From assembly GCA_004764695.1 (NCBI GenBank), contig SMSO01000007.1:1371270-1435269 (forward strand): 64,000 bases of DNA, in the 5' to 3' direction. Below the pieces are notes generated by a model, which was not told the origin of the DNA, made no database searches, and was given only the letters and a program-made list of their open reading frames with translations. How positions within the stretch are numbered: the stretch's first letter is position 1; each line of letters opens with the position of its first letter. Shown piece by piece: positions 15,194 through 40,455 of this stretch. The DNA comes from Schizochytrium sp. TIO01. Lineage: Eukaryota > Sar > Bigyra > Thraustochytrida > Thraustochytriidae. A program made the translations under genes and the position numbers.

Positions 15194-15229
15194 GTAAAAA
15201 TAATCAATTACTACAAATATAATTTTGAA

Positions 15230-21102: not shown

Positions 21103-21112
21103 CTACTCTGCA
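20930..21112 (-). repeat. 3' flank of VWA gene A, inverted partner of 26060-26275
   Basis: The reverse complement of this stretch, from the stop-codon region of gene A outward, matches 26060-26275 (GCAGAGTAGCTTGTGCTGTG, GGATGGCGAACTCAGG, AGAGCTTGGTTAGGTTAGG). Contains TTAGG-like runs. Confidence 0.75.
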
Positions 21113-24100
21113 ATAGGGGCTAAATCATCCCCCCATACCAAATCGGTGACTGTACCATATGCTCCTGCCAGACCTTCGAAGCCGCCAAGTACAACTGGGT
21201 AAGATTGGTCAAGATATAACAAAGTATCCTTACCAGAATTGCCCCTGTTAAAACTTTTCGTACAAGCTTCTTCGCCATTAATGTATAAGGACATCGAGAA
21301 TGTCTCCTGATTTACATAAACGTCAATGCTATAAGTCAAACCCAGCTCCAAATCAATACTCGAATCGCAACCTGCTTTGGTGTCTGACGATAAAGAACTA
21401 CGTAGCAAAAGTGTTGTTGACCCCTTCTTGATGAGAATTGCTGGTTGACGATAATAGGTCTTCTTATCAGCTGAAATGCCATCTCCGCGCTGGATGACAC
21501 TCTGATAATTCGTGTATGTACTAAACAACGTGAACTTAAAGCTCAAAGAGTATGGCGAGGATAGCACTAGTCCATCACTTACGATTTCATTCGCTAACGA
21601 CGGCAAGTAGGTCGGGGCATTCGTTGGGGGATTTGGACTATGCGTCGGTGTACCTGTAGTTGGGGCATTCGTTGGGGGCGTTGGACTTTGCGTCGGTGTA
21701 CCTGTAGTTGGGGCATTCGTTGGGGGAGTTGGGCTATGCGTCGGTGTACCTGTAGTTGGGGCATTCGTTGGGGGAGTTGGACTTTGCGTTGGTGTACCTG
21801 TAGTTGGGGCATTCGTTGGAGGAGTTGGACTTTGTGTCGGTGTACCTGTAGTTGGGGCATTCGTTGGTGGAGTTGGACTTTGCGTCGGTGTACCTGTAGT
21901 TGGAGCATTCGTTGGGGAAGTTGGACTTTGCGTCGGTGTACCTGTAGTTGGGGCATTCGTTGGGGGAGTTGGACTTTGCGTCGGTGTACCTGTAGTTGGG
22001 GCATTCGTTGGGGGAGTTGGACTTTGCGTCGGTGTACCTGTAGTTGGGGCATTCGTTGGGGGAGTTGGACTTTGCGTCGGTGTACCTGTAGTTGGGGCAT
22101 TAGTTGGGGGAGTTGGCGAACTTGTGGGCCTTTCTGTTTCATAGTCCCACATTAAGTTCTCCACTGTTCCAGATGCAGTCACGAAATTGTCTGGGCCTCC
22201 GATGTACAGCGGCAAGCTCTCGCCCACATATAGCAGCTTTTCAGAAGCAGCAAAACTAATGCTACAACCAAGATCGCCGTCTATGTAGATATTGGCAGCA
22301 TCTCCTTCTGTTACGGTGATGTCTATTTGGTAAGTCTTTCCCAATTCCAGTTTGGTTGTATCGCAGTGTCTATTCGCGTTCACTGATGTAGATATACGAA
22401 ACAGAAGCTTGCTGGATCCTCTGCCGGCAAAAACAGCTGGCTGCCGAACGTAGCCTTTTGAAGTGTGTCTGGTTCCACGCTGAATGATACTCTGAGGACC
22501 CTCGGAGTTTGTGTTATCAAGTGTAAAGTCAAAGCTCATCGAGTACGTGGAGCTAAGAAACACCTCTTCATCATAGACTGCATTCGCCAACGACGGTGGC
22601 ACAGTAGGACTTTCCGTCGGTGTACCTGTAGTTGGGGCATTCGTTGGGGGAGTTGGCGAACTTGTGGGCCTTTCTGTTTCATACTCCCACATTAAGTTCT
22701 CCACTGTACCAGATGCAGTCACGAAATTGTCTGGGCATCCAATGTACAGAGGCAAGCTCTCATCCACATACAACAAAGTTTCATCTGCAGTATACTCAAT
22801 GGTGCAGCCTAAATCACCGTCGATATAGAGATTGGCAGTTTCACCTTCTGTTACACTAATCTTTATTTCATAGGTCTTTCCCAACTCGAGCTCAGTAGTT
22901 GTATTGCAGCCCTTGTTTGAGAATTCCGAAGTAGAGGTACGGAAACGAAGCTTGCTTGTGCCCTCATCGACGAAAAGAGCTGGCTGACGAACGTAACCGT
23001 TTGCATTCATTTTCGTTCCACGTTGAATGATACTCTGAGGACCCTCGGAGTTTGTGTTATCAAGTGTAAAGTCAAAGCTCATCGAGTACGTGGAGCTAAG
23101 AAACACCTCGTCATCATAGACTGCATTCGCCAACGACGGTGGCGCAGTAGGACTTGACGTAAGCGATTCCGAAGGACTTGGCGTAAGCGATTCCGTAGGA
23201 CTTGGCGTAAGCGATTCCGTAGGACTTGGAGTTGGTTTGGCAGTAGCCTCCTCGGCAACACGGGAACAGTATTTTGGACCTGAAAAAAAATTGCCCTTCT
23301 TATATTTCGAAGAACCAGCACTTTTGTACAAGAAACACTTGCGTTTCGGATTCAAAGTAAAGTATTCACAGCCGTCTGTTGCATAGCACAATGAGCCACA
23401 CTCTGCAGCAGTCTGAACCTTTTTGATTGGGTTCTCTATGCCAGAAACTTTCTTCACGTTAGTATACTGCTTATTAGAAACGTAGCAGCTTGTGTCTGAC
23501 AGCAAAGTTGGAGCAGGAGTGGGGCTTCCTGTGGAGGCCGTATCAGTAGTGCTTCCTGAAGAAATCGCAGCACAAGACTCCGCAACTGCATCAGAGCTTG
23601 AGGAGACTTCTTTTACATACAATGGAAGGATATCAGACGAAGTAAAGACGTTGTCTGCATCATCGATATTATCTGTTGGAACATGAATCACAACTACATC
23701 GTTTGCTACAGCCTCCTCCACAAGGTTCTCCAAGCAGGACTGCAAAGAACTGGAGGTCAGCTCCGATGCGTCTGCAATGTTGTCACAAACATCATAGACA
23801 GATGTCGACGGGTTAGACGGAATATCGAGGACACCATCGGCAACGATGATAATGACTTTTTGACTCGAAGAACGGCCCTGGTCGTCCAAGATTTTAAGCG
23901 CGTAATCTACGGCAAAAGGGAGACTCGAACTTTCTGTATTGACACGAGAAAGCTTTCCTATTTTGGCGTTTAGCTTTCCTTTATTTTTGAATGTGTCAAA
24001 TGGAAATTTTTTCTTGATACTGTCAGTATAGCCGTACAGAGCGAAGTAGTCATCATCGGTACTCGTTCCAACATCGAAGTTTTTCATAATGCTTTTGCAA

Positions 24101-24273
24101 AGAGCCTTGATATTGTTGAACTCGGCCTTCGATGAGCCGGATTCATCGACCATCATGACGATGTCACGGGGATAGCATGAGCTTGCGCTTGTTGCAGCAG
24201 CATCATATGCAGCGATCAACACCGCAGCAAATGCTACAAGGCAGGCAAACCCAAATTTATTTACTTTTATCAT
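21103..24273 (-). CDS. VWA gene A: secreted VWA-PAN-LamG modular protein (1056 aa)
   Basis: Signal peptide (about 1-27). VWA domain 36-235 has the metal site DESGS (Asp43, Ser45, Ser47) and the core strand VIIIVADG (140-147). A PAN/Apple-like module at about 263-336 has six Cys. Next come a short PSPTESLT linker, two LamG/ConA-like modules (about 380-535 and 565-715; conserved FLSSTYSMSFDFTLD, QSIIQRGT and YIDGDLGC), ten full 16-residue Pro/Thr repeats plus a partial unit, and a distinct third LamG-like module to the C-terminus (FSMSLYINGEEACTK). No membrane helix or GPI-like tail, so probably secreted or wall-associated. VWA and PAN modules usually bind protein or sugar ligands, so an adhesion or matrix role is inferred. 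Paralogues lie at 28184, 32706 and 36742 on the same strand. Confidence 0.8.
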   Translation of the reverse strand: MIKVNKFGFACLVAFAAVLIAAYDAAATSASSCYPRDIVMMVDESGSSKAEFNNIKALCKSIMKNFDVGTSTDDDYFALYGYTDSIKKKFPFDTFKNKGKLNAKIGKLSRVNTESSSLPFAVDYALKILDDQGRSSSQKVIIIVADGVLDIPSNPSTSVYDVCDNIADASELTSSSLQSCLENLVEEAVANDVVVIHVPTDNIDDADNVFTSSDILPLYVKEVSSSSDAVAESCAAISSGSTTDTASTGSPTPAPTLLSDTSCYVSNKQYTNVKKVSGIENPIKKVQTAAECGSLCYATDGCEYFTLNPKRKCFLYKSAGSSKYKKGNFFSGPKYCSRVAEEATAKPTPSPTESLTPSPTESLTPSPSESLTSSPTAPPSLANAVYDDEVFLSSTYSMSFDFTLDNTNSEGPQSIIQRGTKMNANGYVRQPALFVDEGTSKLRFRTSTSEFSNKGCNTTTELELGKTYEIKISVTEGETANLYIDGDLGCTIEYTADETLLYVDESLPLYIGCPDNFVTASGTVENLMWEYETERPTSSPTPPTNAPTTGTPTESPTVPPSLANAVYDEEVFLSSTYSMSFDFTLDNTNSEGPQSIIQRGTRHTSKGYVRQPAVFAGRGSSKLLFRISTSVNANRHCDTTKLELGKTYQIDITVTEGDAANIYIDGDLGCSISFAASEKLLYVGESLPLYIGGPDNFVTASGTVENLMWDYETERPTSSPTPPTNAPTTGTPTQSPTPPTNAPTTGTPTQSPTPPTNAPTTGTPTQSPTPPTNAPTTGTPTQSPTSPTNAPTTGTPTQSPTPPTNAPTTGTPTQSPTPPTNAPTTGTPTQSPTPPTNAPTTGTPTHSPTPPTNAPTTGTPTQSPTPPTNAPTTGTPTHSPNPPTNAPTYLPSLANEIVSDGLVLSSPYSLSFKFTLFSTYTNYQSVIQRGDGISADKKTYYRQPAILIKKGSTTLLLRSSLSSDTKAGCDSSIDLELGLTYSIDVYVNQETFSMSLYINGEEACTKSFNRGNSGKDTLLYLDQSYPVVLGGFEGLAGAYGTVTDLVWGDDLAPIAE
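21640..22130 (-). repeat. coding 48-bp minisatellite of gene A
   Basis: Ten full units plus a partial encode TNAPTTGTPTQSPTPP-type repeats. Variant units (TSPTNAP; HSP in place of QSP) interrupt the array. Both strands stay open across it because 48 is a multiple of three. Confidence 0.95.
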
Positions 24274-24330
24274 TGAGGATATTGTATTAATTCGACCTCA
24301 GCGATGTTGCGTTAAGGTTCTGCTCGGTCT
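24274..24330 (-). promoter_or_regulatory. conserved ATG-proximal block of VWA gene A
   Basis: About 55 bp directly upstream of the ATG, nearly identical at all four VWA genes (landmarks AATACAATATCCTCA next to the ATG and CGCTGAGGTCGAATTAAT). Probably 5'UTR or core promoter. No TATA box identified. Confidence 0.6.
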
Positions 24331-25330
24331 GTGATTCACAATCTGTAGACGTGTTGTAGTTTATTTTGAAGTGATTAAGGATAGAACTAATCTTGTCGTA
24401 GTCTTTGCATTATGTCTTCTCTTCAGAATGGGCTTTTATTATAAAATCCAAATAACACGACAGGCACGTCTCCGCACGATATGCATTTTCAGTTGAACTA
24501 TTATCTACAACTTGCAGTTTTATGTTTTTATCGAAGGGACGTGTCCTCAGATAGTTGATTCTATGAACCTCAAAATGGATAATCTCGAGGACCCCATCCA
24601 AAGTTAGGTCAAGGGCTGGACAGATGGAAGACTGCAGGGGTCCGATTTCTGGTTTTACTAGTGATTCTGCATTACGTATACTGAGAAGTCTGTTTGAGCA
24701 CTATTATAGCTTGGATCAACGAAACACTAGAGCCAAAACTATAATCATCGGTTGACGCTATTTCTAGCCAACTAAGAAGTTGCTAATCAAGTTATAACTA
24801 GACTAAGACTTTTAAAAGAGCGCGGCAAGATGGCTGCCGTGGTAGAGTGAAAGTACACAAGCACTGAGCAGCACCTGGCCCATGGATGGAAGCAATTTCG
24901 ATTGATGATAGCTCTTTAAAAAAAGAAAATTAAAATTGCTTAAAAGGAAATTTGACTTAAAAGTTGGTTTGAAAACACTAATTTGTGGTAACGGATCAAT
25001 ACTTTATCCTTCTTCAAAACTTCTGAAGTAGTTGCGGTACTAGGTAGATATGTCCCCAGTACTATAGTAGTTTGTGATAACATGCATGTTTTAGTAATAG
25101 ATTTGAAAGACTGTAATTCTAAAGGGCAGGTTGTGCTTGAGTGGCAAGGAAGATTATTTATACATCGGAGGATTGTTAGTAGTGAGAAGAGATCCGCTCA
25201 ACAGCTTTGACGTTGTTTCGATAAGGATTATTTTGACTGGAATAGTGTATAAACTAAATCTAGATAATGTTAGCGAGGGTTCGCATGAAAGCTAAACTTA
25301 TTGTGTTCCATTTCCTAGGTTCCTTGTCCT
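24331..25330 (-). repeat. ~1-kb upstream region shared with VWA gene D
   Basis: Matches 40456-41475 closely over most of its length and, in inverted orientation, 15230-16765 in part. Contains no credible ORF. Likely upstream regulatory DNA co-duplicated with the gene. Confidence 0.75.
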
Positions 25331-25769
25331 AGTTGGTGATATTTATTGTTTTTTTCTAGAGGTTACTTTCTCATTCTTTCAGACTCCTGCTATCTATGCA
25401 ACAGTCGACTAACAAAACTTCAAAGCTTTCTTCTTTGCGCTGAATTCTTCCATTTGTCTGCCTTAAAAGTTGATTTAGAGTTTCTGCTGCGGCCTGTATA
25501 TGTAGGGTGGATCAGCTGGAAGGGCCTCTGGCTAGTGAGGATAACTGAATGACACACGGCTCATGGACGCAGGGTCCCTTCAACGATTGTTAGTGTCGTC
25601 TCTTCTCGTCGTTCTGTGTTTGGGATTTAGATTCTGAAACTGATATTGTAAATGGGTACCTGAATGTAATGATGTACTCGTTGTAAAGTCTGCCCTTTCA
25701 TTAGGTATTTGGACACATCCGTGGCCCACTGTATCAAAATGAGCGCAACAGGAAGGATCGTAAAAGTAA

Positions 25770-25985
25770 GCGGGTCGTGAAGACGATGATTGCAATCCTA
25801 AAGTGTTCGGCGGAAGATATGTAGAAAAGAAAGCAGTGCGCCTCAAAGAGAGCAAGGTCGCACCTGCTTGGGTCTCCGAAGTACCAGAAGCTGTGCACGG
25901 GTCAGAATTCGCTCATTTTTTCAAGTCTTTTGATGCTGGTCGGGCCAAAAACGAGGAATTAGCTGCACAAAATAAGAGATCTTGA
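25770..25985 (+). other. possible exon or gene fragment
   Basis: An open stretch without ATG encodes protein-like sequence (REDDDCNPKVFGGRYVEKK, then a Lys/Glu/Ala-rich part ending NEELAAQNKRS before a TGA). The frame is closed upstream by TAA at about 25767, and a neighbouring frame just upstream (RGPLYQNERNRKDRKS) also looks protein-like. It could be a terminal exon or decayed gene; no family recognised. Confidence 0.25.
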
Positions 25986-26059
25986 CATTTCTCTTCTTTC
26001 AAGTGTCCTACAAAACATGATAAAACTATGGTTTTCGAGGTCGAGGCACAAGTCTGGAA

Positions 26060-26275
26060 CATTTTGCAGAGTAGCTTGTGCTGTGAAGCGTGCAGAAGTA
26101 GTCTCACAAGGATGGCGAACTCAGGAAAACGAGAAAAAGGATGATATATGAGTTAATGTGGTTTCGGGTCTGAATACAGGCAGGGATGAATGTATCATGT
26201 CAGTTCAGTGTCGGACAGAAGAGCTTGGTTAGGTTAGGTGAGGTGAGGTTAGGCAGTAGCTTTATATTACTTCAA
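26060..26275 (+). repeat. displaced copy of VWA 3' flank
   Basis: Inverted copy of 20930-21112. No VWA coding sequence precedes it on the plus strand, so it is an orphan 3' flank. Confidence 0.75.
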
Positions 26276-28183
26276 CCGAACAGAAGGCCAAACCGCACTG
26301 TTTCTAAAAGCTTCAGTACCCATAAGAAAAAGTCCCCCCCCCCGACCAGGTAACCAAGGTGGTGCATGTGAAAATGCATTACCTTGGTCTTGGCTACCTC
26401 TCTTTGTTGCATGATGAAAAAAACACACCCATTCCAGACCATTCACGATGCTGATGACTGAGTCTTTGAGCCGGAAACAAAAAATATGTTTCATCGCCCA
26501 ACTCATGAAATCCATTCAAAACTGACTCAAAAGAACCCGGCCTAAACGAGAAAAGCACAAAACTGTCTACACGATGCGCATACCTGCACGCACTACTCAA
26601 GCGCAACTAAAAGAATTTCGAGATTCACAGCAAGCTTACTCTCTGGCTCTATAGAGCTTATCGTGTTACTTGTTGTCTAAATTTAAGACCCTCGAGATTG
26701 TGAACAAGTTATCAAGGCGGATCCATAGCAGGACAGCTCGAATGATGTGTCGTTGGGGCCACTTTAGCTTCTGATCAGCTTTCATTTTCAAAGATGAGCT
26801 CTTCTCCTGCTGATTTAGTCTTGTCATCTGCCAACCAGCGAAAGTCTCTTCAAAAACCTGTAATAAATGTGTGTTCATTCACAATAAGCTTGGGGTCCAT
26901 CTTATTAAATGCCCCCAACGGAAGCACTTAGTCAATCGTGATATCCACGCGGACAGAGATATCCTTTTACGCTACCTGTCTAAGAGAATAATTTGATTAT
27001 GTTTTTGAGTCCCGTGTTATATTTTTCAACCCACAAGTGGGCCTTAGCCCCACACCACAAATACAAGTTTTTATGTTTTTATGTTTTATATATTAGAAAT
27101 GAAGTGCGCCAGTATCATGTGACCTCGTCACGCTCGCTAGCATCGTTCTTGGTCTGCAAATGGTTGTGAACAGGGCCAAGGCTATCTTCCGGACGATTTT
27201 TTTTGCGTTCCAGGTTTCCGAAAAGATCACTAAGCATCACGATAGCAGCTTCAATCACCTTCACGTGGGTGATAAGCTCTTGCAAGTATTCTGTATCGCC
27301 TGTCTGTTACAACGAGACCTCCTTGACAACATCGAATTCGGCTATTTGAACATAACATGCATGGAATACCATTTCTCTCAGTTAAAATCGTTTTTTTTTT
27401 GGTATTTTTTTTTTTTTTTCTGAAGAGATCCAGTTTCGAATTGTATAACAAGGTGGCGTAGGCATGCAAGGTATCAGCTGTAGACGACTAGAATGTCACC
27501 TACCTCATTATGGAGCTTCTCAATACTCGTATGTGCTCAATTTTTTGCAAATGCTACTCCCTTATTCTCGGGTGTCTTACGTCCTCCGTTTCTTGATAGT
27601 TCTCCTTTCTTGTCTTTGGATCCTTCTCCGTTCTCTTGGGGTCTGGCTGTTAAACACCACGTACCTGTTCAAAATTCACCCCATTATTATTCTATGGGCT
27701 AGTCGCGGAGAACTAGCCTTGTTAATAGTTTTCGCTCTTCACAGACTTCAATTTGACGTCGAAAACACGAAGCAAAATGTTATGCGCAGACGAGACCTTT
27801 TGATCATAAGATGAAGCCTGAGCTTTAAATTGAGTAGTCACCTTTTCAAGAGGATTTTTTGATATGCTTCTCAACATTGTTGATAACTTCAGTATAGACT
27901 AGGCTCACTGCTGTTTTAACTAGTGTAGGATGCTTTTTTGTTTGCTGGGCAAATTACGCAGTGCTGTCAATAAGAATAAAATGTCTTGACAAGAACATCT
28001 TCTATCGTATCTATATAACACAGGCTCAACTCCAAACAAATATACGTATGCATGTATATGTGTGTATTTTTCAAAACCTGAAATAAAAACCTGATAATAT
28101 CATGATATTAATTATTCTGAATACCGCCGCAGGGATGCTTTGCATTCAGTTAATCTGTGACCTTGTGGTCGGTAGTGTATTAA

Positions 28184-29884
28184 TTAAACTGCGGTCAGTC
28201 TATTTAATTCGTTATGATAAGCTCTGCTCCATTTCACATTCTGGATTGTAACATATCTGGACTTGCTAACGTAGACCGGAGTGGTGCTTTTCACTCCTTT
28301 CGAGTTCTTAGGATTACCCTGATCTTTATGACAACTTCTCGTACCGTTTAAAAACAGTTCCAAATATCCCTCTGTAACCACAATAACAACCTCGTACGGC
28401 TCGCCTGTAATCAGAGGTTCTTCCGATGTACACACCACGAGGTCATCATCAAGTGAACTACGACTAGCAGCTCTCAGATAGTTATCAGGTGAGATGCCTA
28501 GTTCAGGTTGGAAAATATCGTCATCTCCACGGATAAGAATCCATGCATAGTGAGAGGGGCTCTCATTAAAAATGAATGTGAGATTTAGAGTGTATGGTAT
28601 CGAAAGAGAGCCCACAGCCTCGTGTAACTCAACCCCTAACTGTGCAAGGGTCACAGGGTAAAATGTAGGTGGTACTGTCGGTGCAGTTGTAGGTGATGTT
28701 CTCACATGTTTAGAATGTGTCGTTGGTGCATCTATTTCATTGTGCAACTTCAATGTGTTCAGTCTACCAGATGATGCAGTAGCGTAAGCTTCGAATTTTC
28801 GGAAAGTAGAGCCTCCCGTTCGTAACTTTGTAGGGTTTGCAGTCGGTGTCTCCGTAGGTTCCTCGAGAGAATAGAGACAGTATTTCGGGCCCGAAATAAA
28901 ATTGCTCTTCGTCTGCTTCAAAGAGCCTGCAGTTTCATACAAGAAACACTTGTATTCTGGAGTCAGAGTAAAGTACTCACACAACTCTGTTGCATAGCAC
29001 AACGAACCACACTCTGCAGCAGTCTGAACCTTTTTGATTGGGTTCTCTATGTCAGCAACTTTGGTCACATGAGCGAACTGTTTGTTAGAAATGTAGCAGC
29101 TTGTGTCTGACAGCAAAGTTGGAGCAGGAGTAGGGCTTTCTGTTGGGGCCGTATCAGTAGGGCTCTCTATAAGAGTTTTAACACAAGACTCTGCAGCTGC
29201 ATCAGAGCTTGATGCAGCTTCTTTCACATACAATGAAAGGATATCAGACGAAGTAAAGACGTTGTCTGCATCATCGATATTATCTGTTGGAACATGAATC
29301 ACAACTACATCGTTTGCTACAGCATCTTTCACAAGGTTCTCCAAGCAGGACTGCAACGATCTGGAGGTCAGTCCCGATGCGTCTGCAATGTTGTCACAAA
29401 CATCATAGACAGATGTCGACGGGTTAGACGGAATATCGAGGACACCATCGGCAACGATGATAATGACTTTTTGACTCGAAGAACGGCCCTGGTCGTCCAA
29501 GATTTTAAGCGCGTAATCTACGGCAAAAGAGAGACTCGAACTTTCTGTATTGACACGAGAAAGCTTTCCTATTTTGGCGGTAAGCTTTCCTTTATTGTTG
29601 AGTGTTCCAAATGGAAATTTTTTCTTGATACTGTCAGTATAGCTGTACAGAGCGAAGCGGTCGTCGTCTGCTCGGGCCCCAACGTCGAAGTTTTTCACAA
29701 TGCTTTTGCAAAGAGCCTGAATCTGCTTGAGATCTGTATTTAATGAGGCGGATTCATCGACCATCATGACGATGTCACGGGGATAGCATGAGCTTGCGCT
29801 TGTTGCAGCAGCATCATATGCAGCGATCAACACCGCAGCAAATGCTACAAGACAGGCAAACCCAAATTTATTTACTTTTATCAT
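28184..29884 (-). CDS. VWA gene B: short VWA-PAN-LamG protein (566 aa)
   Basis: The signal peptide and VWA domain (DESAS metal site, Asp43) are almost identical to gene A. Differences cluster just after the metal site (LNTDLKQIQ for KAEFNNIK) and near the VWA end. The PAN-like module retains the Cys pattern. There is no 48-bp repeat array: a short linker (about 345-410) leads to one LamG-like C-terminal module with Cys pairs (VVCTSEEP, RSCHKD) and the end VTIQNVKWSR. That module resembles the C-terminal module of gene D, not that of gene A. No membrane anchor. Nearest relative is the broken gene C, with shared 5' and 3' flanks, so B and C arose by segmental duplication. Confidence 0.8.
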   Translation of the reverse strand: MIKVNKFGFACLVAFAAVLIAAYDAAATSASSCYPRDIVMMVDESASLNTDLKQIQALCKSIVKNFDVGARADDDRFALYSYTDSIKKKFPFGTLNNKGKLTAKIGKLSRVNTESSSLSFAVDYALKILDDQGRSSSQKVIIIVADGVLDIPSNPSTSVYDVCDNIADASGLTSRSLQSCLENLVKDAVANDVVVIHVPTDNIDDADNVFTSSDILSLYVKEAASSSDAAAESCVKTLIESPTDTAPTESPTPAPTLLSDTSCYISNKQFAHVTKVADIENPIKKVQTAAECGSLCYATELCEYFTLTPEYKCFLYETAGSLKQTKSNFISGPKYCLYSLEEPTETPTANPTKLRTGGSTFRKFEAYATASSGRLNTLKLHNEIDAPTTHSKHVRTSPTTAPTVPPTFYPVTLAQLGVELHEAVGSLSIPYTLNLTFIFNESPSHYAWILIRGDDDIFQPELGISPDNYLRAASRSSLDDDLVVCTSEEPLITGEPYEVVIVVTEGYLELFLNGTRSCHKDQGNPKNSKGVKSTTPVYVSKSRYVTIQNVKWSRAYHNELNRLTAV

Positions 29885-29940
29885 TGAGGATATTGTATTA
29901 ATTCGACCTCAGCGATGTTGCGTTAAGGTTCTGCTTGGTC
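29885..29940 (-). promoter_or_regulatory. conserved ATG-proximal block of VWA gene B
   Basis: Same block as upstream of genes A, C and D. Beyond it, B and C share diverged upstream DNA (about 30060-30300 against 34555-34840) that A and D lack. Confidence 0.6.
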
Positions 29941-32705
29941 TGTGATTTATAATCTGTGGACGTGTTGAAATTATCTCTCTTTTAAAAAGATATTAGGTTA
30001 GATTTTTGTATGGTGTATATGGTGTGCTCTCTGTCTGGCTTTTTTCAAGAGCGATTAATCGATTAGCACGCACTACCTATACTGTGAGGTAGCTCCGATG
30101 TATGCGACCTCTATGTTCTAGTTATGTTGAAATGAAGTGCGCTGATGAAGTATTTTGATAGTCTCTTTGTTTTGTTTTCTAGACTAGATATTTGGAGTAT
30201 GTTGTCCAAAATTAGATCGAATGCTGCACATGTGGAAGAAAGTAGCACTTGTTTGGTTCTTTTTGTTCATACATGAAATTCTCATTGAGCTTTGGTTTGC
30301 GGGCTGTCACATTGGTGTCAACAGGAGTTCGCGATACTCGCAAGAGTTTTGAGCAATATTTGACCGGCGTTTGGCACGGCAGGCAACTTTTGGAGTCTTA
30401 AGGAGTCCTATCGTAGACAGGTAGTTATCTACAATTCTGTCGTGCAATGGCAAACTCTAACTATGTATGACACAGGAAGCTGCTCCCAGCCTTCAGCAGT
30501 TCCCCGATTTATCCGACTCACATAATTCACCTGCTTATCGTCAAGACCTGCAGGAACACGTCAACTTTCTTCTAGCTATTGCGGATTTACTCTCTTGATA
30601 AAGAGCTTGTAATAAAGGCTGAGATAACTCATTATCCAGAGATCAAAATTAAAATGTCTAGTTTGGAGAGCACTCAGCAGCGCTCTCACTAATATAGATA
30701 GCAGTCAGAGTTTTAGGTAAAGTCTTGAGCTAGCAGTCATGACTGAACAGCGCTCTCACTGCCATAGATCGCAGCCAGAGGCTGAAAATGCTCTTACTTA
30801 AATAAGGTCTCTAGCTAAAATATCCAGTCGGCAGTCATGACTGAACAGCGCTCTCACTACCATAGATCGCAGTCAGAGGCTGAAAATGTTCTTACTTAAT
30901 AAGATCTCAAGCTACAGTATCCAGTCGGCAGTCATGATTGAACAGCGCTCTCACTACCAGAGATATAGCAGTCAGAGGCTGAAAATGCTCTTGCGTGGAT
31001 AAAGTCTCGAGCCAGAATACTAAATCAGCAGCCATGACTGAACAGCGCTCTCTACTGAGGGGTTTATTACTGGTAGGTGTACCTCTGTGTCAGGTGTGTG
31101 CTATGGATCAATGTTTACCGAAGGGCTGATATGCAATAATTTAAATTACACCTAAGTGAACGGATTGTGAGCGAGACAGAGAGTGAGAACAGGTGTAACA
31201 TAGAATATCCGTCCTTAATTATTGATGCATAATAGAGCATGTTGAGCTATTGTACCAGATAGATTTTTTAATTTCAATTAAAAGTATTAAATTAAATAAA
31301 AGGATTGCCATGCACCCCAAATTCTTGTAATGATTCGATACATGGCGAACCTAATGTCTTCAGATCGAAGGCAAGTCAAGTCGCAAAGTTTCGTCTGTGG
31401 TAATCCGAAGTTTTCTACAACGATGGGAAACTTTTTACCTCGAGAAGATCAAGAAGATCTCTTGAAGTCAAGGGAGAAAAGTTAACACATAAAATGGATG
31501 ATGTTTCTCAAAAAGGGGGCAAATTTGGTTTGCTTCAAAACTTTTAGTGGGCTGGTTTTATGCATGGTAGACTTCCATAATTCCTTTTTAAGGCTTTAAT
31601 GTCTTCTCTGTGAGCTCTTGTCTCGAATCACTTTTTAAAAAATGAGAACAAAAACTAAATTCAGTTGCTTGCAATAATGGGGCTTGGTGCGTGCATTGTT
31701 TTTACTACATGCCAGTAGCATCTGTATACTTACCATTTAGAAGTAACATTGAAGAAAACACGGGCGACAAGACGAGGTACAATACGCGTGTTGCTGCCAA
31801 AGCAGGAAGGGTGATCCACTTTCCATTGTAGCGCGCAGTGTATCGTGAACTGGCAAGACGCCCCGTGGCAACTTATCATGTCCTTTCGATTCCTTTTCTT
31901 TTATTGTTTCCCCAGAGAACGAGAACAGTGACAGTGCTAATGTTGTATCAGCTGATACCAAGGTCTTCAGTAGGGACAGCATTATGAGCACTCTCGCCAA
32001 AATCATTGAAAATCGAGGCTATTGATATTACTATACCATGATCAAGTTTGACATGAAGGCGAGAGAGACAGCTCATATCCACCAGTGTGGAGCGGCTAAA
32101 TCATGATAAGGCTATTGTGCTAAGGCAAATGCCAGCGCTATCTACCAGTTTCTAGACATCGGTGGCGTGTTCAATTGGAGCTGTAAGCTCACCTTACAGC
32201 TTCATATTGTCTAGCACGTAAAACATCCATAGAGCAGACGAGTGTCTTATAGAGATACCCCTCACTCACATCAACTGTTATGGTTTGCCAGTGGTGGATC
32301 CATGCCTCTACCCCCATTGGATAAAAGAAGGCTATGAAAACTGTGATATCACCCCAGCTGATTCCTTGGAGATGCCTGAACGTGAAGACAGGAAACGCGA
32401 CTCCCCCCACCCCCCCAGTTGTTTTTTTGTTCGATGTAGATCGTATCGATGACACAAAGGTTACATGGTTCCCAACATGCGTCTTATGATTGTTCCCATG
32501 AATGTCTCGCTCAAGAATGGGTAACCCACGATGAATTTCAATATGTATGAATAACGTTAGAAGAAACCAGACGAAGCTACCCAAGGCAGAAGGATTCCTT
32601 CTGCAAAGGCTTTCCTCAGATAGAAAAATAATGCGCTTTGTGCGTTACACGAAAGAACAAAGTGCATTCAATTAATCTGTGACCTTGTGGTCGGTAGTGT
32701 ATTAA
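29941..32705. other. intergenic between VWA genes B and C
   Basis: Holds the ~98-bp tandem repeat (30678-31055). A minus-strand ORF at 31737-32006 begins with a hydrophobic, signal-like segment (MILARVLIMLSLLKTLVSA) but has no support beyond that. The stretch 32650-32705 matches the 3' flank of gene B. Confidence 0.5.
30678..31055 (+). repeat. ~98-bp tandem repeat, about 4 units
   Basis: CAGCGCTCTCACT-type unit starts lie at 30678, 30748, 30846, 30943 and about 31043, so spacing is 70 then 97-100 bp. Units share GCAGTCATGACTGAACAGCGCT and GAGGCTGAAAATG. The core resembles GGCACGACTGATCAGCGCTC in the element at 35770-35820. Confidence 0.85.
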
Positions 32706-34405
32706 TTAAACTGCGGTCAGTCTATTTAATTCGTTATGATAAGCTCTGCTCCATTTCACATTCTGGATTGTAACATATCTGGACTTGCTAACGTAGACCG
32801 GAGTGGTGCTTTTCACTCCTTTCGAGTTCTTAGGATTACCCTGATCTTTGTGACAACTTCTCGTACCGTTTAAAAACAGTTCCAAATATCCCTCTGTAAC
32901 CACAATAACAACCTCGTACGTCTCGCCTGTAATCAGAGGTTCTTCCGATGTACACACCACGAGGTCATCATCAAGTGAACTACGACTAGCAGCTCTCAGA
33001 TAGTTATCAGGTGAGATGCCTAGTTCAGGTTGGAAAATATCGTCATCTCCACGGATAAGAATCCATGCATAGCGAGAGGGGCTCTCATTAAAAATGAATG
33101 TGAGATTTAGAGTGTATGGCATCGAAAGAGAGCGCGCAGCCTCATGTAGACTGATTCCGAGTTGCGCAAGGGTCACAGGGTAAAATGTAGGTGGTACTGT
33201 CGGTGCAGTTGTAGGTGATGTTCTCGCATGTTTAGAATGTGTCGTCGGTGCATCTATTTCATTGTGCAACTTCAATGTGTTCAGTCTACCAGATGATGCA
33301 GTAGCGTAAGCTTCGAATTTTCGGAAAGTAGAGCCTCCCGTTCGTAACTTTGTAGGGTTTGCAGTCAGTTCCTCTGTAGATTTCTCGAGAGAATAGAGAC
33401 AGTATTTCGGGCCCGAAATAAAATTGCTCTTCGTCTGCTTCAAGAGCCTGCAGTTTCATACAAGAAACACTTGTATTCTGGAGTCAGAGTAAAGTACTCA
33501 CACAACTCTGTTGCATAGCACAAAGAACCACACTCTGCAGCAGTCTGAACCTTTTTGATTGGGTTCTCTATGTCAGCAACTTTGGTCACATGAGCGAACT
33601 GTTTGTTAGAAATGTAGCAGCTTGTGTCTGACAGCAAAGTTGGAGCAGGAGTAGGGCTTTCTGTTGGGGCCGTATCAGTAGGGCTCTCTATAAGAGTTTT
33701 AACACAAGACTCTGCAGCTGCATCAGAGCTTGATGCAGCTTCTTTCACATACAATGAAAGGATATCAGACGAAGTAAAGACGTTGTCTGCATCATCGATA
33801 TTATCTGTTGGAACATGAATCACAACTACATCGTTTGCTACAGCATCTTTCACAAGGTTCTCCAAGCAGGACTGCAAAGATCTGGAGGTCAGCCCCGATG
33901 CGTCTGCAATATTGTCACAAACATCATAGACAGATGTCGACGGGTTAGACGGAATATCGAGGACACCATCGGCAACGATGATAATGACTTTTTGACTCGA
34001 AGAACGGCCCTGGTCGTCCAAGATTTTAAGCGCGTAATCTACGGCAAAAGGGAGACTCGAACTTTCTGTATTGACACGAGAAAGCTTTCCTATTTTGGCG
34101 GTAAGCTTTCCTTTATTGTTGAGTGTTCCAAATGGAAATTTTTTCTTGATACTGTCAGTATAGCTGTACAGAGCGAAGCGGTCGTCGTCTGCTCGGGCCC
34201 CAACGTCGAAGTTTTTCACAATGCTTTTGCAAAGAGCCTGAATCTGCTTGAGATCTGTATTTAATGAGGTGGATTCATCGACCATCATGACGATGTCACG
34301 GGGATAGCATGAGCTTGCGCTTGTTGCAGCAGCATCATATGCAGCGATCAACACCGCAGCAAATGCTACAAGACAGGCAAACCCAAATTTATTTACTTTT
34401 ATCAT
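32706..34405 (-). pseudogene. VWA gene C: frameshifted copy of gene B
   Basis: Same architecture as B: signal peptide, VWA (metal site DESTS), PAN-like module, linker, one LamG-like module. One T is missing relative to B at about 33444 (B reads GGCTCTTTGAAG, C reads GGCTCTTGAAG on the minus strand). This creates an in-frame TGA after CFLYETAGS (residue 321), inside the PAN module; the remaining frame (33443-32706) continues open to the same C-terminus. Apart from this the two are nearly identical, so the lesion is recent, or is a sequencing or assembly error in a three-base run. A truncated secreted VWA protein could still be made. Confidence 0.8.
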
Positions 34406-34460
34406 TGAGGATATTGTATTAATTCGACCTCAGCGATGTTGCGTTAAGGTTCTGCTTGGT
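34406..34460 (-). promoter_or_regulatory. conserved ATG-proximal block of VWA gene C
   Basis: Near-identical to the blocks at genes A, B and D, so the broken gene keeps its presumed promoter. Confidence 0.6.
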
Positions 34461-35269
34461 CTGTGATTTATATAATCTGTGGACCTGAAATTATCTTTCA
34501 GGTAAAAAAATAAAATAAAAATCAGTCCATAATATTATAAGGTTTGTACCAGTGTGGGGTACCCTCTGCAATTGCGCACGCTACCTTTACTATGGAGCAG
34601 CCCCTCCATATAAGAGTTCTGCGCTCTCTAGAGTTATGTTGAAAGGAAGTGTCCTGGTGAAGCATCTTCTACATTGTCTTTGCTTTGTTCTATGTTGTGG
34701 AAGAAGTCCTAGTTATGTATCGCATCCCAAATTAGATCGAGTGCTGCACATGCGGAAGAACGGCGGTCCCAGTGCTTCTTTGGTTCTCTTTGTTTATCCA
34801 AGTTCGGAGGCCTCAACGAATGCCTCGAAACTTGCCCAGGATTGAGCTCATCTGTGCGCGTAATCTTCAACCCGTGAACTGAGGGCCCAAGCTGTGCGAG
34901 GTAACTTCTCCTATACATTAACTAATTCCCACTTGCCCACGCGCAATTTATCCCGCAAAACAAGACCTTGTGCTGTAGAAGTATTGGCGACCACATCGAG
35001 AGTCCCACGGATACATATACACATACATACATTTCAACCTCAATAAGGATGGGCTGTTCTCGCAGCAGTTCTGGTTTGAAGTACTCCTCCGGCTCACGCT
35101 CCCCTTAGAGCCGGAAAACCTTGCGCGGGTTTCTTCAAGTTCGTGAGCCTTCTCCAGGCGGCTGAGACCTCTCAGACATCACCTATGAAGCAAGACAACT
35201 TAGTTTACGGACCGGCGTCGAGAGGGGTACTCGAGTACTGCAGGGTGAGGAAAGTTGCAAGAGTTCTGA
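34461..35269. other. intergenic, diverged duplicate of gene B upstream DNA
   Basis: No gene seen. About 34555-34840 resembles 30060-30300 (shared AAATTAGATCGAGTGCTGCA and TTATGTTGAAAGGAAGTG-like segments). Confidence 0.5.
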
Positions 35270-35333
35270 GCAAATTGGGTCCCCAGGAGCCTTAAGCAGG
35301 AAAGGGACCATTTTCCACTTACACTTAGACTTC

Positions 35334-35376
<43 letters not shown>

Positions 35377-36085
35377 CTCTCCTGCGACGTCGGAGTTTCT
35401 TACAGTCCTGGCTGTGAAGTTTTATTTCTCCGATTCCCCCGATCCGCACAGTTCTCGTTCACAGCTCTTGGGCGAAACCAACTCTGGTACACGCCAAACT
35501 CCTTGTGCGTAAGGTAGTCGTTGCGGGTTTGCTGTTTCGGATGAAGGGCCGGGAGGAAGGACTTTGAGACAGAGATGCCTGGTCGTCCATCCAGAGATCT
35601 TCTTCAGCTTAGAGTGTATGTCTGGTTTGGAGGGAGGGTACGCGAACCCCGGATTGGAGGACATGAACACCCAGCATGCATGCTCCCGCTACCGTAGATA
35701 ACAAACAAATAAACAAACAAACAAACAGTCAGAAGATGAAAGTCCTCCCACTTAGATATAAGATCAAGTCGAGATACGTACTCGGCAGGCACGACTGATC
35801 AGCGCTCTAAAGGACTGTGTTACGAGGGATGCCATCTTCAGTATGCACTTTACTCGAACCGGTTCGAGTGAAGGCAATGAGGCAAAATCTCTGTACGTGG
35901 GTAAAACAGCCAAAACAATCACTAATGTGTGGATAGGTACACACATTTTGCAAGATATCTAGCTGGAAATAGGAGGTATGTATGCAGGTGCCTACCTATC
36001 ATGCACGAAGAGAAGCTTCTACCATGAATATGCAATTATGTTCGTCCGATTCGTGCCACCTACGTAAGCATACTTAGATCAGAAC
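35270..36085 (-). repeat. ~0.8-kb dispersed element, copy 2 (inverted partner of 16775-17540)
   Basis: Reverse-complement match to 16775-17540. Has a longer (TTAG)n run and a one-mismatch version of the palindrome. Together the two copies bracket genes A-C and the second oxidoreductase. Confidence 0.75.
35334..35376 (+). repeat. (TTAG)n microsatellite
   Basis: About ten GTTA units; a shorter, imperfect counterpart lies at 17448-17475 in the inverted copy. Confidence 0.9.
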
Positions 36086-36741
36086 CATGCTTAGAAATGA
36101 CCTGAAGTAGAATTTCTATTGCTTGCCAGTTTGCTTTTACTTGAGATCTGACTCAGGTGAAAGAACTCTTTGCAACATTCAAGACGACTTTGTCGTAGGG
36201 AATTCAATTCATAGTGTGCGGGTAATGGTGTACCTGCCTACCGTGTAATAAGTACGCTCAGACACAAACTCGAGCAGCACGTGGATCTACTCATTCTGGT
36301 CCCTACTAGCAAATTCAAGTTCTTTGTTTATATCTCAGGACTCTGAGATCGTGGAGCATTACTTCAGGAGGAATCATATTCAGAAACAAGAGATCAAATC
36401 GAAGAGTGTTGAGGGTAATCGACAGCAATCGACCACCTTGACAGCATTTACCACAATTGTTACGTAAAGCAATCAGAAGTTTAGAACACAAAGCGACGAG
36501 CTAGAACGGGAAGACATCATGTGGTAACTAACAAGCATCGAACCAAAGTTCTCCCCGAGTCCAATTCCTCTTTTCTTCTCATTCCTTCTTTCCAATCATA
36601 AAAAAGAAATGAAAACCAAAACCAAGATTCATTTCTTAATGGTATCTCAAAGGCCACTTATATAAACCACACGCGGAAATTCTACATGAGCGGAACTTCA
36701 CTTGTACACATCAGGGCAACAGTATGTGAAAATGAATTATC
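36086..36741. other. intergenic downstream of VWA gene D
   Basis: No gene or known repeat recognised. Confidence 0.5.
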
Positions 36742-39700
36742 TCAACTCCACTTCACATTACTGATTGTGAAATCTGAGTCGTTGGTAATGTAGACTGGAT
36801 AGGCAACCCCCACGCCCGAATAAGAATCATGAGGAATCATATTATGATGACAACTCGCCAAACCGTCCAGATACAGGTGAATTTGGTTGTTCTTGACATC
36901 GACTTTAACGCTGTATGTTCTGCTCTCAAATAATCCTTCAGTTATGCAAACTAAATCGTTACCTGACGTTGTCGAGACTGACACTTGAAGTTTGTGACTA
37001 TCTGTAAACTCAAATTTTGGTTGGACCGTGTCCGAGTCTCCGTGGAGAATAATCGTTCTTGAAGTACTGGGGTCGTTCGCATAGCTAAACGAGAAACTCA
37101 AAGTATAAGTCGAGGACAAGGAGCGACTAGACTCATAGAGTTCAAGCGTATCGTCTCCAAGATCATTCGTAGTTGGGGCATTCGTTGGGGGAGTTGGACT
37201 TTGCGTCGGTGTACCTGTAGTTGGGGCATTCGTTGGGGGAGTTGGACTTTGTGTCGGTGTACCTGTAGTTGGGGCATTCGTTGGTGGAGTTGGACTTTGC
37301 GTCGGTGTACCTGTAGTTGGAGCATTCGTTGGGGAAGTTGGACTTTGCGTCGGTGTACCTGTAGTTGGGGCATTCGTTGGGGGAGTTGGACTTTGCGTCG
37401 GTGTACCTGTAGTTGGGGCATTCGTTGGGGGAGTTGGACTTTGCGTCGGTGTACCTGTAGTCGGGGCATTCGTTGGTGGAGTTGGACTTTGCGTCGGTGT
37501 ACCTGTAGTTGGGGCATTCGTTGGGGGAGTTGGACTTTGCGTCGGTGTACCTGTAGTTGGGGCATTCGTTGGGGGAGTTGGACTTTGCGTCGGTGTACCT
37601 GTAGTTGGGGCATTCGTTGGGGGAGTTGGCGAACTTGTGGGCCTTTCTGTTTCATAGTCCCACATTAAGTTGTCTATTGTACCAGATGCAGTCACGAAAT
37701 TGTCTGGGCCTCCGATGTACAGCGGCAAGCTCTCGCCCACATATAGCAGCTTTTCAGAAGCAGCAAAACTAATTCTACAACCAAGATCGCCGTCTATGTA
37801 GATATTGGCAGCATCTCCTTCTGTTACGGTGATGTCTATTTGGTAAGTCTTTCCCAATTCCAGTGTAGTAGTATCGCAGTGTCTATTCGAGTTCACTGAT
37901 GTAGATATCCGAAACAGAAGCTTGCTGGATCCTCTGCCGGCAAAAACAGCTGGCTGCCGAACGTAGCCTTTTGAAGTGTGTCTGGTTCCACGCTGAATGA
38001 CGCTCTGAGGACCCTTGGAGTTTGTGTTATCAAGTGTAAAGTCAAAGCTCATCGAGTACGTGGAGCTAAGAAACACCTCTTCATCATAGACTGCATTCGC
38101 CAACGACGGTGACGCAGTAGGACTTTGCGTCGGTGTACCTGTAGTTGGGGCATTCGTTGAGGGAGTTGGACTTTGCGTCGGTGTACCTGTAGTTGGGGCA
38201 TTCGTTGGGGGAGTTGGCGAACTTGTGGGCCTTTCTGTTTTATACTCCCACTTTAAGTTCTCCACTGTACCAGATGCAGTCACGAAATTGTCTGGGCATC
38301 CAATGTACAGAGGCAAGCTCTCATCCACATACAACAAAGTTTCATCTGCAGTATACTCAATGGTGCAGCCTAAATCACCGTCGATATAGAGATTGGCAGT
38401 TTCACCTTCTGTTACACTAATCTTTATTTCATAGGTCTTTCCCAACTCGAGCTCAGTAGTTGTATTGCAGCCCTTGTTTGAGAATTCCGAAGTAGAGGTA
38501 CGGAAACGAAGCTTGCTTGTGCCCTCATCGACGAAAAGAGCTGGCTGACGAACGTAACCGTTTGCATTCATTTTCGTTCCACGTTGAATGATACTCTGAG
38601 GACCCTCGGAGTTTGTGTAATCAAGTGTAAAGTCAAAGCTCATCGAGTACGTGGAGCTAAGAAACACCTCGTCATCATAGACTGCATTCGCCAACGACGG
38701 TGGCGCAGTAGGACTTTCCGTCGGTGTACCTGTAGTTGTGGCATTCGTTGGGGGAGTTGGCGAACTTGTGGGCCTTTCTGTTTTATACTCCCACATTAAG
38801 TTCTCCACTGTACCAGATGCAGTCACGAAATTGTCTGGGCATCCAATGTACAGAGGCAAGCTCTCATCCACATACAACAAAGTTTCATCTGCAGTATACT
38901 CAATGGTGCAGCCTAAATTACCGTCGATATAGAGATTGGCAGTTTCACCTTCTGTTACACTAATCTTTATTTCATAGGTCTTTCCCAACTCCAGATCAGT
39001 AGTTGTATTGCAGCCCTTGTTTGAGAATTCCGAAGTAGAGGTACGGAAACGAAGCTTGCTTGTGCCCTCATCAACGAAAAGAGCTGGCTGACGAACGTAA
39101 CCGTTTGCATTCATTTTCGTTCCACGTTGAATGATACTCTGAGGACCCTCGGAGTTTGTGTAATCAAGTGTAAAGTCAAAGCTCATCGAGTACGTGGAGC
39201 TAAGAAACACCTCGTCATCATAGACTGCATTCGCCAACGACGGTGGCGCAGTAGGACTCGACGTAAGCGATTCCGAAGGACTTGGCGTAAGCGATTCCGA
39301 AGGACTTGGTGTAAGCGATTCCGAAGGACTTGGCGTAAGCGATTCCGAAGCACTTGGAGTTGGTTCGGCAGTAGCTTCCTCGGCAACACGGGAACAGTAT
39401 TTTGGACCTGAAAAAAATTTGCCCTTCTTATATTTCGAAGAGCCAGCACTTTTGTACAAGAAACACTTGCGTTTCGGATTCAAAGTAAAGTATTCACAGC
39501 CGTCTGTTGCATAGCACAACGAGCCACACTCTGCAGCAGTCTGAACCTTTTTGATTGGGTTCTCTATGCCAGAGACTTTCTTCACGTTAGTATACTGCTT
39601 ATTAGAAACGTAGCAGCTTGTGTCTGACAGCAAAGTTGGAGCAGGAGTAGGGCTTCCTGTGGAGGCCGTATCAGTAGTGCTTCCTGAAGAAATCGCAGCA

Positions 39701-40401
39701 CAAGACTCCGCAACTGCATCAGAGCTTGAGGAGACTTCTTTTACATACAATGGAAGGATATCAGACGAAGTAAAGACGTTGTCTGCATCATCGATATTAT
39801 TTGTTGGAACATGAATCACAGCTACATCGTTTGCTACAGCCTCCTCCACAAGGTTCTCCAAGCAGGACTGCAAAGAACTGGAGGTCAGCTCCGATGCGTC
39901 TGCAATGTTGTCACAAACATCATAGACAGATGTCGACGGGTTAGACGGAATATCGAGGACACCATCGGCAACGATGATAATGACTTTTTGACTCGAAGAA
40001 CGGCCCTGGTCGTCCAAGATTTTAAGCGCGTAATCTACGGCAAAAGGGAGACTCGAACTTTCTGTATTGACACGAGAAAGCTTTCCTATTTTGGCGTTTA
40101 GCTTTCCTTTATTTTTGAATGTGCCAAATGGAAATTTGTTCGTGATACTGTCAGTATAGCCGTACAGAGCGAAGTAGTCATCATCGGTACTCGTTCCAAC
40201 ATCGAAGTTTTTCACAATGCTCTTGCAAAGAGCCTTGATCTTGTTGAACTCGGCCTTCGATGAGCCGGATTCATCGACCATCATGACGATGTCACGGGGA
40301 TAGCATGAGCTTGCGCTTGCTGCAGCAGCATCATATGCAGCGATCAACACCGCAGCAAATGCTACAAGGCAGGCAAACCCAAATTTATTTACTTTTATCA
40401 T
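36742..40401 (-). CDS. VWA gene D: longest VWA-PAN-LamG protein (1219 aa)
   Basis: The signal peptide, VWA (DESGS) and PAN-like modules are almost identical to gene A. A PSPSESLT linker follows, then three LamG-like modules of the A type. The first two are near-copies of each other with a 543-bp (181-residue) in-frame period; the third matches the second LamG of gene A (YVRQPAVFAGRGSSK). Then come nine full 16-residue Pro/Thr repeats plus a partial, and a C-terminal LamG-like module (IHLYLDGLASCHH ... FTISNVKWS) related to genes B and C rather than A. No anchor, so probably secreted. Gene D equals gene A with one module added and the C-terminal module exchanged, which shows module-level recombination. 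Ligand unknown. Confidence 0.8.
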   Translation of the reverse strand: MIKVNKFGFACLVAFAAVLIAAYDAAAASASSCYPRDIVMMVDESGSSKAEFNKIKALCKSIVKNFDVGTSTDDDYFALYGYTDSITNKFPFGTFKNKGKLNAKIGKLSRVNTESSSLPFAVDYALKILDDQGRSSSQKVIIIVADGVLDIPSNPSTSVYDVCDNIADASELTSSSLQSCLENLVEEAVANDVAVIHVPTNNIDDADNVFTSSDILPLYVKEVSSSSDAVAESCAAISSGSTTDTASTGSPTPAPTLLSDTSCYVSNKQYTNVKKVSGIENPIKKVQTAAECGSLCYATDGCEYFTLNPKRKCFLYKSAGSSKYKKGKFFSGPKYCSRVAEEATAEPTPSASESLTPSPSESLTPSPSESLTPSPSESLTSSPTAPPSLANAVYDDEVFLSSTYSMSFDFTLDYTNSEGPQSIIQRGTKMNANGYVRQPALFVDEGTSKLRFRTSTSEFSNKGCNTTTDLELGKTYEIKISVTEGETANLYIDGNLGCTIEYTADETLLYVDESLPLYIGCPDNFVTASGTVENLMWEYKTERPTSSPTPPTNATTTGTPTESPTAPPSLANAVYDDEVFLSSTYSMSFDFTLDYTNSEGPQSIIQRGTKMNANGYVRQPALFVDEGTSKLRFRTSTSEFSNKGCNTTTELELGKTYEIKISVTEGETANLYIDGDLGCTIEYTADETLLYVDESLPLYIGCPDNFVTASGTVENLKWEYKTERPTSSPTPPTNAPTTGTPTQSPTPSTNAPTTGTPTQSPTASPSLANAVYDEEVFLSSTYSMSFDFTLDNTNSKGPQSVIQRGTRHTSKGYVRQPAVFAGRGSSKLLFRISTSVNSNRHCDTTTLELGKTYQIDITVTEGDAANIYIDGDLGCRISFAASEKLLYVGESLPLYIGGPDNFVTASGTIDNLMWDYETERPTSSPTPPTNAPTTGTPTQSPTPPTNAPTTGTPTQSPTPPTNAPTTGTPTQSPTPPTNAPTTGTPTQSPTPPTNAPTTGTPTQSPTPPTNAPTTGTPTQSPTSPTNAPTTGTPTQSPTPPTNAPTTGTPTQSPTPPTNAPTTGTPTQSPTPPTNAPTTNDLGDDTLELYESSRSLSSTYTLSFSFSYANDPSTSRTIILHGDSDTVQPKFEFTDSHKLQVSVSTTSGNDLVCITEGLFESRTYSVKVDVKNNQIHLYLDGLASCHHNMIPHDSYSGVGVAYPVYITNDSDFTISNVKWS
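37160..37640 (-). repeat. coding 48-bp minisatellite of gene D
   Basis: Nine full units plus a partial of the same repeat as gene A, including the TSPTNAP variant unit beside the same neighbouring variants. Confidence 0.95.
38150..39235 (-). repeat. 543-bp in-frame tandem duplication of a LamG module in gene D
   Basis: GTTTGTGTAATCAAGTG occurs at 38611 and 39154, and the flanking sequence repeats with few differences. The period is 543 bp, or 181 codons. Confidence 0.9.
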
Positions 40402-40455
40402 GGAGGATATTGTATTAATTCGACCTCAGCGATGTTGCGTTAAGGTTCTGCTCGG
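40402..40455 (-). promoter_or_regulatory. conserved ATG-proximal block of VWA gene D
   Basis: As at genes A-C. The base next to the ATG differs (CATGGAGG here, CATTGAGG in the others on the plus strand). Confidence 0.6.

Follow-up and report, generated by a model that had tools for sequence, protein, structure and literature searches.

We analysed a stretch of 64,000 nucleotides (nt) of Schizochytrium sp. TIO01 DNA, referred to below as the window, which corresponds to positions 1371270-1435269 of contig C6 in a 37-contig, 64.06 Mb genome. This analysis revealed, at positions 21103-40401, a tandem array of four co-oriented paralogues (A, B, C and D), all located on the minus strand, whose predicted products contain, in this order, (i) a signal peptide, (ii) a VWA domain, (iii) a six-cysteine PAN-like module and (iv) one to four LamG/ConA-like modules. 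The array probably encodes a secreted, multivalent, mucin-like family of adhesins or matrix proteins, in which the C-terminal module and the reach of the protein are varied by recombination. There is good evidence for module exchange within the array, as an earlier sequence-only reading of this DNA had proposed: the mosaic of modules seen in the alignments, repeat maps and module tree fits exchange at a minisatellite-coded spacer.

Organization of the array

The description of these genes as co-oriented tandem paralogues with a common signal peptide, VWA and PAN-like module is borne out by their coordinates, by Pfam matches and by a leader peptide common to A, B, C and D, which differs at one residue in D. 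As had also been stated, the copies differ in the number of LamG-like modules (three in A, one in B, one in C and four in D), in spacer length and in the C-terminal module. Four copies are indeed present; the claim of four genes has to be amended in that C is not one open frame, its reading frame being broken by a single frame slip within a short T run. The four genes, with the length of the encoded protein in amino acids (aa) where the frame is intact, are as follows:

21103-24273, minus strand: gene A (1056 aa); signal peptide, VWA, PAN, LamG A1 and A2, Thr/Pro-rich (PT) spacer coded by a 48-nt repeat, LamG A3
28184-29884, minus strand: gene B (566 aa); signal peptide, VWA, PAN, short spacer, LamG B1
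32706-34405, minus strand: gene C; B-like (97.7% identical to B at the DNA level in the block that the two share); split between the frames 33440-34405 and 32706-33443
36742-40401, minus strand: gene D (1219 aa); A-like N-terminal part, LamG D1-D3, PT spacer, terminal LamG D4 of the B/C type

Homology blocks and probable module exchange

The near identity of the N-terminal parts of A and D, noted in the sequence-only reading, extends from 1.1 kb of upstream DNA to the spacer: A (22015-25372) aligns with D (38116-41496) at approximately 93%, and a second A-D alignment starts at 21656 in A and 37169 in D. B (28141-29992) aligns with C (32663-34512). A block that starts about 80 nt before the ATG and extends to PAN is common to all four copies, with 88.8-89.7% identity across the pairs. 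On these alignments, the identity of the shared blocks (88.8-97.7% over 1.1-3.4 kb) is far beyond chance. The following features delimit the A-D homology:

24274-25372, minus strand: 1.1 kb upstream of A; matches the DNA upstream of D (40402-41496), 92.4% over 1117 columns
21614-22116: 48-nt minisatellite of the Thr/Pro-rich spacer of A; 10.5 copies, 95% matches
37169-37629: 48-nt minisatellite of the spacer of D; 9.6 copies, 97% matches; end of the A-D homology

The homology stops within or at the edge of this spacer-coding minisatellite. One variant 48-nt unit occupies position 5 in A and position 7 in D, and the spacer of A comprises 63 Thr and 55 Pro among 177 residues. The LamG modules lying on either side of the spacers, and those of B and C, are:

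22672-23136, minus strand: LamG A1, RQP type
22132-22593, minus strand: LamG A2, RQP type
21124-21600, minus strand: LamG A3, terminal; groups with a gene pair on contig C4
28208-28651, minus strand: LamG B1; a genome search with this module gave 3 matches, in B, C and D only
32730-33173, minus strand: LamG of C, B1 type
38776-39240, minus strand: LamG D1
38233-38697, minus strand: LamG D2, recent duplicate of D1
37645-38106, minus strand: LamG D3
36745-37164, minus strand: LamG D4, terminal, B/C type

In a tree of 21 LamG modules, D4, B1 and the module of C (C1) cluster with 100/99 support, and D4 and B1 share 34% identity; thus, the last module of A is unlike that of D, which belongs with B and C, as the sequence-only reading had it. 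A3 clusters with the C4 gene pair at 93/93, a value under the starred level, and both A3 and C4 were flagged as long branches. A3 and A1 are 42% identical, and the synonymous divergence (dS) between A3 and D4 is saturated (2.98). By the same measure, D1 and D2 arose by recent duplication of an A1-like module (D1-D2 dS 0.02; zero synonymous differences between A1 and D2).

Two scenarios may account for this pattern: either the terminal module was swapped in A or D, or two older paralogues had their 5' parts homogenised as far as the spacer. In either case, a recombination junction would lie at the repeat.

Characteristics of the VWA, PAN and LamG modules

The VWA and PAN regions of the four copies were located as follows:

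23572-24177, minus strand: VWA of A; D43, S45, S47, T113 and D146 unchanged in all four copies
29183-29788, minus strand: VWA of B
33704-34309, minus strand: VWA of C
39700-40305, minus strand: VWA of D
23266-23493, minus strand: PAN of A; six cysteines (263, 292, 296, 302, 313, 336)
28877-29104, minus strand: PAN of B; Pfam score under the cut-off
33398-33625, minus strand: PAN of C; the frame slip falls inside
39394-39621, minus strand: PAN of D

The Pfam VWA model (PF00092) matches A-D with 55.4-57.2 bits (cut-off 23.8; E 3.2e-15 to 1.2e-14), and the closest solved structures are the collagen VI and integrin I domains. The residues listed above form the pattern D-x-S-x-S, T and D, which we take to define the metal site and the roles of its residues. 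Beyond the array, they are unchanged in the relative on contig C30, altered in the C4 pair and in C33, and partly altered in C3.

The scores for PAN_1 (PF00024; cut-off 21.4) are 21.5 bits for A, 21.2 for D, 12.9 for B and 12.6 for C, the second part of the latter lying in the other frame. A has a six-cysteine apple-like pattern, of the kind expected of PAN; the first five of these cysteines are invariant in A-D, and the sixth, C336, lies beyond the frame slip of C. With Laminin_G_3 (PF13385; cut-off 27.6), A (58.5 bits) and D (86.2 bits) score above and B (13.2) and C (18.0) below the cut-off. The B/C/D4-type module has the LamG jelly-roll fold, and laminin-type modules rank among its best-matching solved chains, at 6-16% identity.

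In A, B and D, 19-residue hydropathy windows of at least 1.6 occur at the N-terminus only, and no transmembrane segment or anchor was seen by this method in these three proteins. A single scan of viral_contigs, which may omit records near this genome, returned no viral relative of the VWA-PAN alignment.

Selection and gene conversion

Over the N-terminal part, A-D has a dS of 0.025 and B-C (C up to the slip) one of 0.018, compared with 0.18-0.22 across the pairs. For this part, six comparisons gave whole-region ratios of nonsynonymous to synonymous divergence (dN/dS) of 0.15-0.58. Ten of the eleven module comparisons have a defined ratio, of 0.24-0.55, with three near saturation; in the eleventh (A1-D2) it is undefined for lack of synonymous changes. 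Since the whole-region ratios are all below 1, module and spacer composition accounts for most of the difference between the copies, and positive selection is not shown. The term "fast-changing", applied earlier to this family, therefore suits module number, spacer length and C-terminal type better than it does the residues. Among 30-codon overlapping windows with defined dS, dN/dS reaches at least 1 in 2 of 20 for A-B (1.11 and 1.29) and 3 of 20 for D-B (1.06-1.21); these values come from small counts of 1-4 synonymous changes. The A-D and B-C windows hold too few changes (dS 0 in 13/20 and 15/20, respectively).

Across 960 nt there are 105 variable sites, of which 87 separate A and D from B and C, 17 are singletons and 1 is of another kind. 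None favours AB|CD or AC|BD, which rules out recent conversion between the A/D and B/C pairs; of the checks that the sequence-only reading had suggested, dN/dS thus gave whole-region ratios below 1 and the conversion test made no conversion across pairs visible since each pair split. The A-B divergence is uneven: codons 46-75 have a dS of about 1, codons 106-165 a dS of 0. The longest identical A-B run has P 0.0001 under an even spread (P 0.00025 for third positions), which suggests older conversion or uneven constraint, two causes that the permutation does not separate. Within pairs, the identical-run test was not significant (A-D, P 0.096; B-C, P 0.43).

Conserved 5' leader

A non-coding stretch of about 30 nt, located just 5' of the ATG, is conserved in seven genes: A, B, C, D, the C30 relative and both C4 genes. 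The leaders of the array genes are:

24274-24356, minus strand: 5' leader of A; non-coding, core GCAGAACCnnAACGC
29885-29967, minus strand: 5' leader of B
34406-34487, minus strand: 5' leader of C
40402-40484, minus strand: 5' leader of D

The exact core occurs at 13 sites in the genome, 7 of which belong to these genes. Only the exact set is telling, because one mismatch raises the count to 178 sites, compared with 114 for a reversed control. The whole 83-nt leader used as a query recovers A, B, C, D and the C30 relative, and not the C4 genes. Within 400 nt upstream of eight other relatives, the core, with up to 3 substitutions, is absent in seven, and the eighth has two weak matches. By this distribution, the leader marks a seven-gene subfamily, and it may play a regulatory role. 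One fold of the leader of A gave -11.2 kcal/mol, a value without a control from which we claim no structure.

Related genes elsewhere in the genome

The array, described earlier as a modular and secreted-looking family, retains both of these traits, but it is only part of a genome-wide family. The genome contains at least 37 VWA and at least 50 PAN_1 matches; among the matches listed, 15 of 35 VWA open reading frames (ORFs) also carry PAN (matched by contig and frame length). LamG modules of the array type are also found on contigs C4 (two genes), C30, C31 (three genes), C3, C34 and C35 (a fragment). At least 10 genes combine VWA, PAN and LamG: A, B, C, D, the C4 pair, one on C30 (in two frames), one on C3 and two on C31. 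The latter two have the reversed order LamG-PAN-PAN-VWA, and one of them contains a long PT spacer. Another C31 gene encodes VWA, PT, two PANs and a C-terminal hydrophobic segment. In 18 relative ORFs scanned, PAN_1 scored over the cut-off in 15 (21.5-52.8 bits) and under it in 3, and no catalytic domain exceeded its Pfam cut-off.

Three near-identical pairs of VWA/PT genes (one with PAN), representing haplotypes or duplicates, are located on contigs C33 and C9. They share 95.9%, 99.9% and 99.0% identity where aligned, their products measure 568 vs 541, 883 vs 876 and 2128 vs 1923 aa, and the gaps lie mostly in PT/Ser-rich stretches.

Three further observations concern individual relatives. 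The closest one outside the array (L001 3834-6744, contig C30) consists of two frames of 408 and 580 aa, with the break near the start of the first LamG. A secreted-looking protein encoded on the same contig (L006 773-3610) contains two VWA stretches, PAN and RCC1 repeats. L012 (C31) and L014 (C3) are near-identical genes, in which a repeated N-terminal region, unassigned by Pfam, is followed by PT, PAN, PAN and VWA.

Possible role of the array

In a probable adhesin or matrix family, the metal-dependent VWA and the PAN would bind protein or glycan partners, the LamG modules would bind extracellular glycans, and the Thr/Pro spacer would form an O-glycosylated stalk that sets the reach. Because no anchor was seen in A, B and D, we propose that the proteins may be held at the surface through their partners or the matrix. 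The repeat-coded spacer would be the site of the unequal exchange or gene conversion that changes the binding tip and the reach, with single modules meanwhile kept under purifying selection. The likeliest site of action would be cell-substrate or cell-cell attachment, possibly at the ectoplasmic net or the cell wall. Both the adhesin or matrix function and the ectoplasmic-net location are what we infer from sequence. A bolder proposal, which we consider speculative and rather unlikely in full, is that, in the array and in the wider VWA/PAN/LamG/PT family to which it belongs, a conserved VWA-PAN base is re-tipped with different lectin-like ends via recombination in the minisatellite stalk, giving diversity of attachment or recognition to the ectoplasmic net or cell wall.

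Several points weigh against the adhesin or matrix interpretation. The structure model of VWA-PAN was poor (pLDDT 33.5) and was not used, so the PAN call depends on the spacing of the cysteines and on a borderline Pfam score. As no anchor was found, the A, B and D proteins could be freely secreted. A LamG profile search of solved structures by sequence gave two weak matches only (E 0.28 and 0.98), and the LamG fold cannot tell the ligand, as it is common to galectins, pentraxins, sialidases and the binding domains of clostridial neurotoxins. In the three-module relatives on C4, C3 and C31, Pfam's LamG model does not list LamG, and the call is based on matches to the array modules. Finally, part of the family may be decaying, because gene C and the C30 relative are frame-broken.

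Food may be the target instead: the products would then be secreted substrate-capture proteins, whose LamG and PAN modules would cover bacteria or organic particles to be digested by secreted enzymes or the ectoplasmic net. Thraustochytrids are decomposers, and this explanation, which we regard as unlikely though plausible, also agrees with the missing membrane anchor in A, B and D and with the very long PT spacers and repeated lectin-like modules of some relatives. The 18 relative ORFs lack a catalytic domain over the cut-off, but a capture protein need not have one, and the same parts fit a food or a surface target alike.

We attach a low probability to an array for cell-type, mating or self/non-self recognition, with specificity set by the C-terminal modules. 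Its tandem copies have different terminal modules, and one terminal type was matched in the array only; moreover, the divergent A/B codons 46-75 lie between conserved blocks, and a few windows exceed a dN/dS of 1. The whole-region ratio is below 1 in all defined comparisons, which speaks against it.

Equally improbable is a neutrally expanding and decaying tandem family, in which the differences would stem from duplication, drift and repeat slippage. The broken frames of gene C and the C30 relative, a long terminal repeat (LTR) inserted at the end of A and a lone 175-nt A fragment on C35 would all suit such a history, but selection at the module level is purifying, the metal site and cysteines are unchanged among the copies, and the 5' leader is kept in distant relatives.

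There is very little to recommend an assembly artefact, in which mis-assembly at repeats would have produced or rearranged the copies. Long minisatellites and blocks that are nearly identical do assemble poorly, and one copy has a single-base frame slip, but the homology blocks end differently and similar architectures recur at several other loci. The assembly collapse considered in the sequence-only reading is unlikely, since the copies have different termini and mostly different intergenic DNA, and since CD36, the neighbouring gene, is present once.

Comparison with known systems

The domains are of known kinds, and the architecture (VWA-PAN-LamG with a PT spacer) was not found described in searches, not all of them aimed at it, of the open-licence literature of PubMed Central. 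Apicomplexan adhesins of the TRAP/MIC2 type are presumably similar in being secreted-pathway proteins that use a metal-site VWA for adhesion; they differ in having thrombospondin repeats and a transmembrane segment in place of PAN, LamG and PT. Pfam listed no thrombospondin type 1 repeat in five ORFs at E up to 1, and no TRAP/MIC2-type transmembrane segment with an acidic cytoplasmic tail was seen in A, B and D. The oomycete CBEL, which we take to be a comparable stramenopile secreted protein, joins PAN to a carbohydrate-binding module; it has no VWA and its carbohydrate module is CBM1, whereas the candidate carbohydrate binder of the array proteins is a LamG-fold module. Collagen VI and integrin I (VWA) and laminin, neurexin, agrin and PAPP-A (LamG) use the same folds as extracellular binding modules. 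The array proteins differ from these animal matrix and adhesion proteins in the VWA-PAN-LamG order and the PT minisatellite spacers, and the identity to the best-ranked solved chains is 6-16%.

Toxoplasma MIC4-type proteins are likewise secreted and PAN/apple-like, but they contain six apple domains, compared with one PAN, placed between VWA and LamG, in the array proteins. A secreted MIC4-like protein of Aurantiochytrium limacinum (A0A6S8AHQ2) appears among untested ectoplasmic-net candidates (PMC12221091). It is apple-like and comes from the same kind of organism, the comparison being one of descriptions; the main text of that article has no mention of VWA, von Willebrand or laminin. In another marine flagellate, stationary phase is reported to bring a rise in adhesion domains, laminin G and VWF type D among them (PMC7852580).

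The attachment of thraustochytrids and the building of their ectoplasmic net are poorly known at the molecular level. The array family offers specific, testable candidates for surface adhesion, with an evolutionary signature of stalk repeats and module swaps, and is a counterpart, built from other parts, of the modular adhesins found in apicomplexans and animals.

LTR element and neighbouring features

The last three codons and the stop of A lie within a solo LTR:

20935-21115, minus strand: 181-nt solo LTR, 3' end of A; 5-nt flanks nearly the same (GCCCC/GCTCC)

Another solo LTR of this kind, in inverted orientation, is located at 26062-26277 between identical flanks (GAACA/GAACA). The sequence following the stop of A is a dispersed repeat with at least 48 genome matches, some of them two per copy. 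Among the matches listed, four same-strand pairs are 5.26-5.40 kb apart, the spacing expected of an LTR retrotransposon of about 5.3 kb, as which we identify the element. The lone fragment on C35 (L016 4762-4936) is 95% identical to the end of the spacer of A and the start of A3, and its surroundings are unrelated to the window.

An Rfam scan of 18000-46500 gave nothing at gathering scores. The array is adjoined by the single-copy gene of the CD36 family (44655-46421). A 98-nt tandem repeat (3.3 copies, 30733-31052) lies between B and C, with a diverged copy (35722-35809) between C and D. On contig C4, a PfaA-type polyunsaturated fatty acid synthase exceeds the cut-off of TIGR02813, which is passed in 0 of 14 control genomes, 11 of them having sub-cut-off matches; taken with the long single-frame genes and the size of the genome, this suggests a thraustochytrid. 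Elsewhere in the window, two paralogous pyridine nucleotide-disulphide oxidoreductase genes (8829-10391 and 18248-19528) are accompanied by duplicated DNA at 11657-11826 and 17704-17878. A tandem duplication of about 800-960 nt, whose pieces are 92-98% identical, occupies 15222-16743, near a perfect AAAC repeat of 43 units.

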